Of a stretch of DNA of 64,000 bases, positions 22,526 to 26,361 are shown one piece after another. Numbering within the stretch: position 1 is the stretch's first letter; the number at the start of each line of letters is the position of its first letter. The position numbers and the translations under genes were made by a program. The notes beneath the pieces were generated by a model. That model worked only from the letters and a program-made list of their open reading frames with translations, did not search any database and had not been told where the DNA came from. Origin of the DNA: Komagataeibacter xylinus (GTDB taxonomy: Bacteria > Pseudomonadota > Alphaproteobacteria > Acetobacterales > Acetobacteraceae); the NCBI RefSeq assembly GCF_009834365.1, contig NZ_CP041348.1:2455001-2519000 (forward strand), given 5' to 3'.

Positions 22526-23024
22526 GGGTTCTTTCTCGCTCCTGACCAATCCTGCGCGGGCTTTCGCGCCTGCCTGCACACAACGCAGGCGCGCGGGCAG
22601 GCGTTTATACAAACAATCGTGCCCGGTTGTTGCGACACGGGTCGTGCTTCCTGCCGCCTGCCCCCGCCGCGCGGGCCAGCGTGGGGCAGGGGCATGGCGC
22701 AAATAAGGCGGGCGGGAAGGGGGCGAAGAGTGCGATATTGTATGAATGGCTGATCTATACTGTGTTTTTGGTTTTTGTTCATAAAAACATAATAAAAATG
22801 TATCGAAAACATAACACATGCGGGCAGGCGCGGCGGCTAGATGAAGAGGCCGTGGTTAAGGAATGATGAATATGGCCTGCCGGTTCGTTGCGACATCATG
22901 ATGTGCCCGTACGTCGATTGCGCACGGCCCCGTTCTTCGGGCCGGTAGGGCAGGCAGTCATGCGCTTTTTGAACGCAGGCGCAGGCATGGCGCCCTCCGA
23001 TTTGAAATGGTTGTGGAACATTGC
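22526..23024. other. 499-base divergent intergenic region
   Basis: No gene found. A 9-base-pair hairpin (CGCGCCTGC 22565-22573 with GCAGGCGCG 22585-22593) lies in the phosphomutase leader, an AT-rich promoter-like block is at 22735-22815, and a 6-base-pair hairpin (CGGCCC/GGGCCG, 22925-22944) lies in the leader of the GGDEF-EAL gene. No match to the c-di-GMP-I riboswitch core is visible. Confidence 0.5.
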
Positions 23025-25160
23025 ATGATGAACGATATCGCCGCCCCGCCAGCCCGGCAGGCCTTCACGACCATGGGCGATATCGCCTGCCAGGGGCCGG
23101 TCATCGGGCCGGATGCGCTGGGCGAGCGGCTGTTCGAACTGTTTCACAATGACCCCGCCCTGATGCTGGTGGCGGTGGTGGATGAACACGGCACACCAGT
23201 GGGCCTGGTGGAACGGCAGGCCTTCTTTCTCAAGGTATCGGGCCGGTTTGGCCATGCGCTGTTCAACCGCCGCCCCGTGGCGCTGCTGATGGATGATGCC
23301 CCGGTCATGATCGATGCCGACATTCCCTCCGCCGAGTTTACGGCACGCGCGCTCATGACCCAGCCCTCCGACCTCATGCGCGGCTATATCGTGACAAAGG
23401 CGGGGCGCTATCATGGTACGGGCTCGGCGCTGGACCTGATCAATGCCTCGCATTCCCACGCCGTGGCCTCTGCCTCGGGGCTGAAGGCGGCGGCGGAAGA
23501 CCTGCGGCGGGCCAATAAACGCATCCTGCGTGACAAGCTGTTCATCGACACCATTGTCGAGAACATTCCCTCCGCCCTGATCGTGCGTTCCATGCGTGAT
23601 GACCATCCCGTGCTGGTCAACCGCGCAGCAGAAGAAATGATGGGCTGCACGCGCGACCTTCTGCTCGAGCGCAATGTCGATGCCGTATTCGATGCCGACG
23701 AGATCGGCCACCTGCTGCTCAGCCGCGCGGCAGGGCGCGCACAGGCGGCGGAGCAGGTTCTGTGCGACCACCATGGCACGGCGCGCGCCATCGCCACCCG
23801 TCATGTCACCATTACCGATGAGCGTGGCGGCGCGCGGTGGGAAATGTGCGTGGCCGATGACGTGACCGAGCAGCGTAACGCCCAGCACCGCGTCGAGCAG
23901 CTTGCCCATTACGACCCGCTGACCGGGCTTGCCAACCGCGCCCTGTTCTCCGCCCGGCTCGAGGCCAGTTGCGCCCCCGGCCTGAGTGCGACGCTGCTGT
24001 GCATCGACCTTGATTACTTCAAGACCGTCAATGACGTGTATGGTCACGCGGCGGGTGATACGCTGCTGCGGCTGGTCTCCGCCCGGCTGCTGGCCTGCAG
24101 CCGGCCCGAAGACCTTGTGGCACGGCTGGGTGGCGACGAGTTTGCCATCATCTGGCCCGATGTGCCCGACCCCGCCGAACTGACCGGCCGCGCGCGCGAG
24201 ATTGTCGAGACCGTAAGCAGGCCCTACATCATCGACGGGCACCATATCGTCATTGGCGCCAGCATTGGTGCGGCACTGTACCCGCAGGATGGCGACAGCG
24301 CCGAAATCCTTCTGCAACATGCCGATATTGCGCTGTACCGCGCCAAGTCGCTCGGGCGCAACGGCTTCCAGTTCTTTGATGCCGACCTGCGCGATGAAAT
24401 CCAGACCCGCGCGCGCCTTGGCAACGACCTGCGCGCGGCCATTGCGGGCAATGCGCTGACGCTGCATTTCCAGCCGCTCTATTCCATGCCGGGCAACCGC
24501 ATCAGCGCGTGCGAGGCGCTGGTGCGCTGGCACCACCCCGAGCGCGGCATGATCCCGCCTGACCAGTTCGTGGGCTTGGCCGAGGAGAACGGCCTGATCC
24601 ACGACCTCGGGGAATGGGTGCTGCGCGCCGCCTGCATTGAGGCGGCGGGCTGGCCCGAGCAGGTGCGCATTGCGGTCAATGTCTCGCCCATCCAGCTGCG
24701 CAACCCGCGCTTCCTGAGCATTGTGGAAGGGGCTCTGGCAGCCTCCGGCCTTGCCCCCGCGCGGCTCGAGGTCGAGATCACCGAGAACATCTTCGTGCAG
24801 AACAGCGCCACCAACCGCGACATCCTGCACAGGCTGGGCCAGATCGGGTGCAGCATCGTGCTTGATGATTTCGGCACCGGCTATTCCTCGCTGGGCTACC
24901 TGCGCTCGTTTCGCTTCCAGAAGATCAAGATCGACCGCTCCTTCGTGCAGGAACTGCCCGAGCGCGGGGCAGCAGGCATCATCCGCGCCATCATCAGCCT
25001 GGCGCAGAGCATGGACATTCCCATCACGGCGGAAGGCGTGGAAACACACGACCAGTGGACGCATCTCAACGCGCTTGGCTGCAACCAGGTGCAGGGTTTC
25101 CTGCTTGGCCGCCCGCAGCCATCGGAGATGATCCGCCAGAGCATCCTCACCCACGCCTGA
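23025..25160 (+). CDS. c-di-GMP enzyme: sensory N-terminus, PAS, GGDEF and EAL
   Basis: A 711-residue soluble protein. Residues about 20-140 look like a degenerate CBS-type or related sensory module; 170-285 is PAS-like; GGDEF follows with LGGDEF intact at 369-373 and an inhibitory site RPED (360-363) five residues before it; the EAL domain starts EAL 497-499 with VNVSPIQL, EITEN, DDFGTGYSSLGYL, KIDRSF, EGVET and the final GFLLGRP. Both catalytic sites therefore look competent, so it may make and destroy c-di-GMP, or one domain may only sense. GGAA upstream supports 23025 or 23028. In cellulose-producing relatives, proteins of this layout set cellulose synthase activity. Confidence 0.9.
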   Translation: MMNDIAAPPARQAFTTMGDIACQGPVIGPDALGERLFELFHNDPALMLVAVVDEHGTPVGLVERQAFFLKVSGRFGHALFNRRPVALLMDDAPVMIDADIPSAEFTARALMTQPSDLMRGYIVTKAGRYHGTGSALDLINASHSHAVASASGLKAAAEDLRRANKRILRDKLFIDTIVENIPSALIVRSMRDDHPVLVNRAAEEMMGCTRDLLLERNVDAVFDADEIGHLLLSRAAGRAQAAEQVLCDHHGTARAIATRHVTITDERGGARWEMCVADDVTEQRNAQHRVEQLAHYDPLTGLANRALFSARLEASCAPGLSATLLCIDLDYFKTVNDVYGHAAGDTLLRLVSARLLACSRPEDLVARLGGDEFAIIWPDVPDPAELTGRAREIVETVSRPYIIDGHHIVIGASIGAALYPQDGDSAEILLQHADIALYRAKSLGRNGFQFFDADLRDEIQTRARLGNDLRAAIAGNALTLHFQPLYSMPGNRISACEALVRWHHPERGMIPPDQFVGLAEENGLIHDLGEWVLRAACIEAAGWPEQVRIAVNVSPIQLRNPRFLSIVEGALAASGLAPARLEVEITENIFVQNSATNRDILHRLGQIGCSIVLDDFGTGYSSLGYLRSFRFQKIKIDRSFVQELPERGAAGIIRAIISLAQSMDIPITAEGVETHDQWTHLNALGCNQVQGFLLGRPQPSEMIRQSILTHA

Positions 25161-25260
25161 ACGCAGGCGCCCCAGTGTGACTGACGAATATGTGTGCCTG
25201 CCCGCATGGCGCCTGTGCGCGCATGGTCTTGCCATCGTAACAGAAAACACTTAAAAGCGC

Positions 25261-25401
25261 GGCCAGCATCAGGAGTTGGGGCGACGCCCAACGCCAACCT
25301 GCCGTTCCGGGCAAGGTGGCGCTCCCGCAAGGGAGGATGTGGCCAGGCCGGCAACAAAACGGATCATGCCACGTAGCGCGTCATGCCCCTCACAATTGAG
25401 G
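25261..25401 (+). ncRNA. structured metA leader, four-way junction plus hairpin over the ribosome-binding site
   Basis: Read directly: P1 pairs GGCCA (25261-25265) with TGGCC (25340-25344) and CATC (25267-25270) with GATG (25336-25339). P2 is GTTGGG/CCCAAC (25275-25292). P3 is a 10-base-pair stem (25293-25320) with two bulged A residues. P4 is CTCCC/GGGAG (25322-25335) capped by a GCAA tetraloop. P2 abuts P3 and P4 abuts P1 with no spare base. Downstream, CCTCA (25388-25392) pairs with TGAGG (25397-25401), covering the Shine-Dalgarno GAGGACGGA. This layout suggests a cis-regulatory RNA for methionine synthesis. It does not match the SAM-I, SAM-II or SAH consensus I know. Confidence 0.6.
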
Positions 25402-25413
25402 ACGGACGCGGCA

Positions 25414-26361
25414 ATGCCCATAAGAATACCCGATGATCTGCCCGCACGCGGCACGCTTGAAGCCGAGGGCGTGATGGTGATGGGCGAGACCGACGCCATA
25501 CGGCAGGATATCCGCCCGCTGCGCATCGGCCTGCTCAACCTCATGCCCAACAAGATCCGCACCGAGACCCAGATCGCCCGCCTCATCGGGGCGACACCGC
25601 TGCAGGTCGAACTCACGCTGGTGCGCATGAGCGGCCATGTGCCGCGCAATGCTTCCGCCAGTCACATGACCTCGTTCTACCGGGCGTGGGAGGATGTGCG
25701 CGGCGCGCGCTTCGATGGCTTCATCATCACCGGAGCCCCCGTCGAGCGCCTGCCATTTGCCGAGGTGACATACTGGGATGAACTGCGCCGCGTGTTCGAC
25801 TGGACCCGGACCAACGTGCACCGATGTTTCAACATCTGCTGGGCCGCGCAGGCCGCGGTGCACCACTTTCATGGCGTGCCCAAGCACATGCTCGCCCGCA
25901 AGGCGTTCGGGGTATATGACCACCGCATTATGGCACCCACCTCGCCCTACCTGCAGGGCTTTGCCGATGATCTGTCCATTCCCGTCTCGCGCTGGACGGA
26001 GGTGCGGCGCGCGGACCTGCCGCGCGGCACTGACATGACCGTTCTGGCCGAGAGCCCCGAGACCGGCCTGTGCCTGCTTGATGACCCGCGCCACCATGCA
26101 CTGCACATGTTCAACCATCTTGAATATGATTCCACCTCGCTGGCCGATGAATATTTCCGCGACCGCGAGAAGGGCCTCGATATTGCGGTGCCGTACAACT
26201 ATTTCCCGCATGATGACCCGACCCTGCGCCCCATCAACCGCTGGCGTGCGCATGCGCACCTGCTGGCGGGCAACTGGATCAACCAGATCTACCAGACCAC
26301 GCCGTTCGATATGGCGCGGATCGGGCATGAAAGCCGCAGCCCGGCCCTGGCCTGCGCCTGA
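25414..26361 (+). CDS. metA: homoserine O-acyltransferase, MetA fold, predicted acetyl-CoA specific
   Basis: A 315-residue MetA-fold enzyme that activates homoserine for methionine synthesis. Numbering from this start falls exactly on the E. coli reference residues: catalytic Cys142 (NICWAAQ), His235 and Glu237 (MFNHLEYD). Residue 111 is Glu (ITGAPVERL); published work on the family links Glu111 to acetyl-CoA and Gly111 to succinyl-CoA, so O-acetylhomoserine is the expected product despite the metA name. The upstream in-frame extension overlaps the structured leader and is not coding. GAGGACGGA upstream is the ribosome-binding site. A metC-like gene and no metZ or metY lie in this window. Confidence 0.93.

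Follow-up and report, generated by a model that had tools for sequence, protein, structure and literature searches.

The aptamer in front of metA

We analyzed a stretch of 64,000 nucleotides (nt) of Komagataeibacter xylinus DNA (contig NZ_CP041348.1, positions 2,455,001 to 2,519,000), below called the window, within which all positions are counted. It contains metA, the gene for a homoserine O-acyltransferase, and judged by sequence comparison the leader RNA in front of this gene is almost certainly an S-adenosylmethionine (SAM) riboswitch of the SAM-I/IV family. The Rfam model of that family (RF01725) matches 25261-25368 on the forward strand over its full length (model positions 1-99 of 99) with 54.6 bits, 13.5 bits above the gathering score of 41.1 (cmscan; E = 3.4e-6 for the 64 kb window). 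No other Rfam match in the window reaches the gathering score, and a covariance search of the whole genome found one copy.

The original prediction, made from the letters of the window alone, had proposed a leader of the ligand-sensing or protein-binding type before metA, with a hairpin over the Shine-Dalgarno (SD) sequence, and had added that, matching none of the SAM-I, SAM-II, SAM-IV, or SAH cores, it may be a new or diverged class. A ligand-sensing leader, probably acting on the SD, is supported. The new class gives way to the confident match to SAM-I/IV, a separate family, obtained when the Rfam models were run. The structure before metA is real, but its kind is an ordinary one: the class is already known, this member of it is well conserved, and metA is a classic target. 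The features of the locus, all on the forward (+) strand, are as follows.

25229-25234 and 25252-25257, +: promoter-like pair TTGCCA and TAAAAG, 17 nt apart; predicted transcript start about 25263-25266
25261-25368, +: SAM-I/IV riboswitch aptamer (RF01725)
25266-25270 with 25336-25340, +: P1 (GCAUC:GAUGU)
25275-25280 with 25287-25292, +: P2, 6 pairs
25293-25303 with 25310-25320, +: P3, 10 pairs
25322-25326 with 25331-25335, +: P4, 5 pairs, GCAA loop
25342-25344 with 25350-25352, +: P5
25306-25309 with 25360-25363, +: pseudoknot, P3 loop UCCG with CGGA
25398-25402, +: Shine-Dalgarno sequence GAGGA, 11 nt before ATG 25414
25414-26361, +: metA, homoserine O-acyltransferase, 315 amino acids (aa) (PF04204, 411.9 bits)

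We aligned the leader of the window and 32 further metA leaders (33 in total). Across this alignment, 99.2% of the cells of P1 (inner five pairs) to P5 and the pseudoknot are paired, compared with 31.6 to 48.3% when the partners are slid against each other. The stems also covary among the relatives: nine aptamer pairs vary at both positions, against a mean of 3.8 in shuffles (0 of 500 as high). P1 is paired in every cell, and four of its five pairs are invariant. P2 is likewise 100% paired, a continuous helix with neither internal loop nor kink-turn, in which three of the six pairs change on both sides. P3 (99.4% paired) is more rigid, with eight of ten pairs invariant and one changed on both sides, and P4, which lies inside the junction (98.1%), has both-sided changes at three of its five pairs and a GNRA loop whose sequence varies among the leaders. 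P5, 3' of P1, is paired throughout. The pseudoknot between the P3 loop and the 3' tail is paired in 97.0% of cells; its varying pair is UA in 20 leaders, CG in nine, UG in one and something else in three, and only one of 10,000 permutations is as good.

The sizes originally given for P2, P3 and P4, the GCAA loop, and the flush junctions of P2 with P3 and of P4 with P1 are all borne out. The inventory of four helices was incomplete, having missed P5 and the pseudoknot, and the nine-pair P1 stands only in its inner five pairs. The outer four, GGCC:GGCC (25261-25264 with 25341-25344), pair in 55.3% of cells and nowhere change on both sides, and we reject them on account of this unconserved pairing; their 3' strand overlaps P5, and the transcript probably starts within or after their 5' strand. 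The strong evidence for the structure is comparative. The minimum free energy fold of 25255-25420 is only moderately stabler than shuffled sequence (z = -1.93; 8 of 200 shuffles as stable), and it differs from the aptamer fold.

The neighboring families were also considered. SAM-I (RF00162) and SAM-IV (RF00634) share a clan with SAM-I/IV, and their models have no match here. With 150 of 273 first-look candidates scored, the SAM-I model found nothing in the genome at E ≤ 10; the SAM-IV model, with 150 of 863 candidates scored, gave nothing at the metA leader and three weak matches elsewhere in the genome (17.1-18.9 bits, cut-off 38); both negatives are limited by a 401-base search in which one weaker match of the same clan overlaps beneath RF01725. 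At the thresholds used, we reject SAM-I and SAM-IV proper. The SAM-II model (RF00521) also has no match at the metA leader. The failure of the SAM-I and SAM-IV models is what could speak for a new class, or for a variant with another ligand, as originally proposed; set against the full-length RF01725 match and a core that is nearly invariant in sequence over 33 leaders, all before metA, we reject the new class and find either version barely conceivable.

SAM-I, SAM-I/IV, and SAM-IV are described as having two parallel co-axial SAM-binding domains in common, SAM-I having a kink-turn and SAM-IV an extra pseudoknot, PK-1, and no P4 (PMC6890682). In the 2010 description, SAM-I/IV RNAs are typically metagenomic and lack the P2 internal loop (Weinberg et al. 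2010, PMC2864571). With the class as characterized there, the window RNA shares the P1-P4 core, the P2 without internal loop, P4, P5, the pseudoknot of the P3 loop, and a position directly before a methionine gene; in contrast to that account, many of the copies found here are in isolates. A further difference lies in the 3' tail. The Rfam consensus of the 3' pseudoknot region reads ...Aaggag... and is SD-like, whereas in the window this strand reads CGGA and lies 50 nt upstream of the start codon, with a separate platform after the aptamer.

For a survey of leaders we kept the best 80 of 452 metA relatives, and 72 of these 80 loci have RF01725 above the cut-off directly upstream of metA (17, 19, 19, and 17 in four batches). 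They include Komagataeibacter, Novacetimonas, Acetobacter, Sphingosinicella, Camelimonas, Azospirillum, Inquilinus, Kaistia, Methylobacterium, Brucella, and Tistrella; the closest relative of the window protein, at 97% identity, is from Komagataeibacter. A class called typically metagenomic in the 2010 description (PMC2864571) stands before metA at these 72 of the best 80 relatives. The new content is modest: this occurrence before metA across named genomes, the position of the promoter, and a testable two-point model of switching.

Transcript start, termination, and the metA start codon

The promoter-like pair recurs among relatives. A TTGNNN-N17-TA arrangement, read by eye, stands just 5' of the aptamer in all 12 metA leaders from a survey of the host family, and of the 70 named leaders whose upstream sequence is long enough, 66 have TTG-N20-TA at a distance of 37 or 38 nt on the 5' side of the P1 CATC (L079, L082, L123, and L130 lack it). 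In 200 rounds of shuffling, the same pattern occurred on average in 1.5, and at most in nine, of 75 upstream stretches. A simple sigma-70 promoter scan found nothing in the leader region. We predict from these sequences that the transcript starts near the 5' end of the aptamer; the promoter-like site lies 5' of it, which speaks against a transcript start downstream of 25344.

Control by transcription attenuation, in which SAM would bring about termination before metA, intrinsic or by Rho, appears highly improbable. No intrinsic-terminator-like site was found by a scan of 25140-25480, and no T run follows the stem that covers the SD in the window; we reject an intrinsic terminator in this leader for lack of such a site. 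The class does seem capable of this kind of control, as two copies in another genome indicate (L002 and L032 of G077). There, the SAM-I/IV aptamer is followed by a CCCTCC-loop-GGAGGG hairpin and six T residues, read by eye as intrinsic-terminator-like. The P2 strand of L002, GGGTCGACGCC, could pair along its whole length with a segment that shares bases with the beginning of this hairpin, and this pairing is a possible antiterminator.

A second ATG, at 25366-25368 and just 3' of the pseudoknot strand, shares the reading frame of metA and precedes 25414 by 16 codons. We reject it as the start of metA: an ATG within 6 nt of the pseudoknot strand is absent from 68 of 75 metA leaders, and six of the seven that have one are from Komagataeibacter, the window included. 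The MetA relatives listed also align from residue 1 of the 25414 start. As for the reaction, the window protein scores higher with the NCBIfam model MetA_acetyl (443.2 bits, cut-off 460.5) than with MetA_succinyl (386 bits, cut-off 495), both below their cut-offs. The Glu in its APVERLPF motif sits where, we assume, Escherichia coli has Gly, presumably the position of acyl specificity. The protein may be an acetyltransferase.

Alternative pairings and translation of metA

We propose that SAM represses the translation of metA through the SAM-I/IV riboswitch, which would act as an OFF switch, and put the probability of this reading at roughly 0.85. SAM binding, the direction of the response, and the interconversion of both folds in the cell are what we infer. 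Three elements downstream of the pseudoknot enter into the model.

25368-25374, +: anti-P1 strand GCCACGU, able to pair with 25337-25343 in the 3' strand of P1 and in P5 (GCCAC with GUGGC)
25378-25389, +: shared arm GCGUC-AU-GCCCC, able to pair with GGGGCGACGC at 25278-25287 (5' strand and loop of P2) or, with its neighbors, with the SD/start region
25377-25410, +: putative SD-sequestering stem, 25377-25382 with 25405-25410 and, inside it, 25388-25392 with 25397-25401 (pairing-energy permutation test)

With SAM bound, the aptamer would be stabilized by P1, P2, P3, P4, P5, and the pseudoknot. This would leave the arm around 25377-25392 free to pair with the SD/start region (25397-25410), excluding ribosomes and lowering MetA. 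In the absence of SAM, GCCACGU would capture the 3' strand of P1 and, in a helix nested with this one, 25378-25389 would capture the 5' strand and loop of P2; the aptamer would fall apart, the SD would be left without a partner, and metA would be translated. That the ligand-free fold dismantles the aptamer at two points, P1 by GCCAC and P2 by the SD-hiding arm, has in our estimate an even chance of being right, and for the exchange at P2 in particular the scales are similarly balanced.

The anti-P1 pairing has a probability of 0.96 in the unconstrained fold of the window. Over 57 SAM-I/IV copies found before several genes in the host family, it covaries: its varying pair is C:G in 15, U:A in 25, and U:G in five, with C:A in none and no motif in 12. 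Among the 75 metA leaders this pair is U:A in 68 and C:A in one, with no motif in six; there the P1 base is almost constant, and the pattern reflects conservation and not covariation. For the other two pairings we used 25 representatives of <80% similarity, drawn from the 75 leaders (the 70 of 72 named leaders that could be parsed and five from the family survey). Within leaders, the anti-P2 strands fit each other better than mismatched strands do (-15.89 versus -13.36 kcal/mol; 0 of 10,000 permutations), as do the strands of the SD stem (-15.78 versus -13.26 kcal/mol; 0 of 10,000). Control pairings gave no signal (P2 with the SD arm, 9631 of 10,000; P4 with the arm, 9271 of 10,000). The same test on 11 distinct metA leaders of the family survey gave 95 of 5000 for anti-P2 and 14 of 5000 for the SD stem. 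When single arms were shuffled in 12 metA leaders, at most 6 of 200 shuffles matched the anti-P2 pairing in seven of them, including the window (6 of 200 dinucleotide shuffles). One leader, L016, changes both sides of anti-P2 (AACGC with GCGUU). On the side of energy, the ensembles of the window leader are nearly equal when P1-P3 or anti-P2 is enforced (-66.4 and -67.3 kcal/mol, respectively).

Several results weigh against the proposed switch. The permutation tests handle relatedness only through the 80% cut, and the arms were narrowed after the sequences had been seen, following a cruder permutation of the whole P2 hairpin against the whole tail. In that earlier form, 232 of 2000 permutations did as well for metA leaders, 264 of 2000 for leaders of a lyase gene, 1 of 2000 for other leaders, and 0 of 2000 for all together. 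The SD hairpin of the original prediction (25388-25401) is present but is only the tip of the longer stem, and in the window this stem is no better than shuffled sequence (39 of 200 dinucleotide shuffles as good); with one arm shuffled, it is clear (at most 2 of 200) in only four of the 12 leaders. The anti-P2 pairing fails such shuffles in L020 (131 of 200) and L035 (123 of 200). In unconstrained folds, the SD is mostly paired (0.35 unpaired over 75 leaders), and anti-P2 reaches at least 3.5 expected pairs in only three of 12 leaders (L001, L010, and L006). The aptamer state is the stabler by 2.8 kcal/mol on average over the 75 leaders, with the ON state at least as stable in only 21. The SD does become more accessible when anti-P2 is enforced (mean unpaired 0.62, versus 0.29 with P1-P3 enforced; higher in 74 of 75 leaders), but this shows consistency and is not proof, because enforcing anti-P2 takes away the partner of the SD. 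The two-point model is better supported by the comparative data than by the energy model.

A simpler form of SAM-I/IV repression would have the aptamer and pseudoknot either form or not, with only anti-P1 exchanged for P1; the SD stem would dampen in general, and anti-P2 would be incidental, arising from similarity of the sequences. This seems to us unlikely, although anti-P1 is the best conserved of the alternative pairings (68 of 75) and has a probability of at least 0.91 in eight of 12 unconstrained folds. The SD stem is also predicted in both states for many leaders, and the lyase leaders lack significant matching between P2 and tail. What argues against it is the anti-P2 matching within leaders, which the control pairings lack, together with the changes on both sides in L016 and the strand that anti-P2 shares with the SD stem, as a switch requires.

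If the two-point exchange is right, the 5' strand and loop of P2 imitate the SD/start region, and SAM-I/IV would have an expression platform in which P2 is the competing helix, from Komagataeibacter to Azospirillum and Methylobacterium. A literature search on the expression platform listed, among its matches, no title on SAM-I/IV before metA. In Sinorhizobium meliloti, SAM-II (RF00521) is reported before metA and metZ, and the results given there suggest that the ligand-free form leads to more ribosome binding to metA mRNA (PMC9373788). As far as that account goes, the gene is the same in the two systems and, on the model proposed here, so would be the ligand and the translational control of metA; the families are distributed differently, with SAM-II before metA in S. 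meliloti and here SAM-I/IV before metA and SAM-II before a metZ-type gene.

Further SAM riboswitches and neighboring genes

In the host family, RF01725 occurs at 57 places in 54 of 299 genomes. Of the 57 places, 12 precede metA and 19 a PF01212-like gene, six are near two other genes, and 20 have no match to any of the four query proteins. Within the genus, metA was found in 10 of 19 genomes; of the seven genomes covered by both the metA and the riboswitch surveys, six have both and one (G060) has neither. The 20 records listed of the 381 matched in a plasmid search comprise matches of the metA type, one EAL gene, and places without annotation.

The PF01212 beta-eliminating-lyase gene follows 19 of the 57 copies (L029, L034, L039, L041-L049, L051-L056, and L058; one member was scanned with Pfam and the rest were found by tblastn). 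We take this gene to resemble threonine aldolase. A literature search combining SAM riboswitches with threonine aldolase returned nothing on the pairing, judged by title.

Another group of SAM-I/IV aptamers, grouped by eye, stands shortly upstream of an uncharacterized open reading frame of ~95-140 aa in Roseomonas-related genomes, a kinship named for the L026 protein (L026, L018, L023, L050, L009, L013, L017, L019, L021, L028, and L037; more diverged, L004, L005, L011, L012, L014, and L036). The two members scanned have no Pfam match. At E ≤ 0.001, the L026 protein belongs to a set of 51 relatives, counting itself, labeled hypothetical or uncharacterized except for one "Transposase." The reading frame could encode a SAM-controlled protein of uncharacterized role.

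The K. xylinus genome also carries a SAM-II riboswitch, the one match of that model at E ≤ 0.001 (G000:C1:1685939-1686019, reverse strand; L031 1501-1581; 59.3 bits). The gene directly after it is metZ-type, its product scoring as an O-succinylhomoserine sulfhydrylase (TIGR01325, 553.3 bits, cut-off 510.05). SAM-I/IV and SAM-II, two families of SAM riboswitch, thus precede two methionine genes of one genome, metA and the metZ-type gene, which makes a handy comparison. SAM-II is found in 247 of the 299 genomes of the host family, versus 54 for SAM-I/IV.

In the window, the product of the gene upstream of the metA leader (23007-25160, forward strand) contains a GGDEF domain (TIGR00254, above cut-off), and its C-terminal part resembles cyclic di-GMP phosphodiesterases in matches below the cut-offs.
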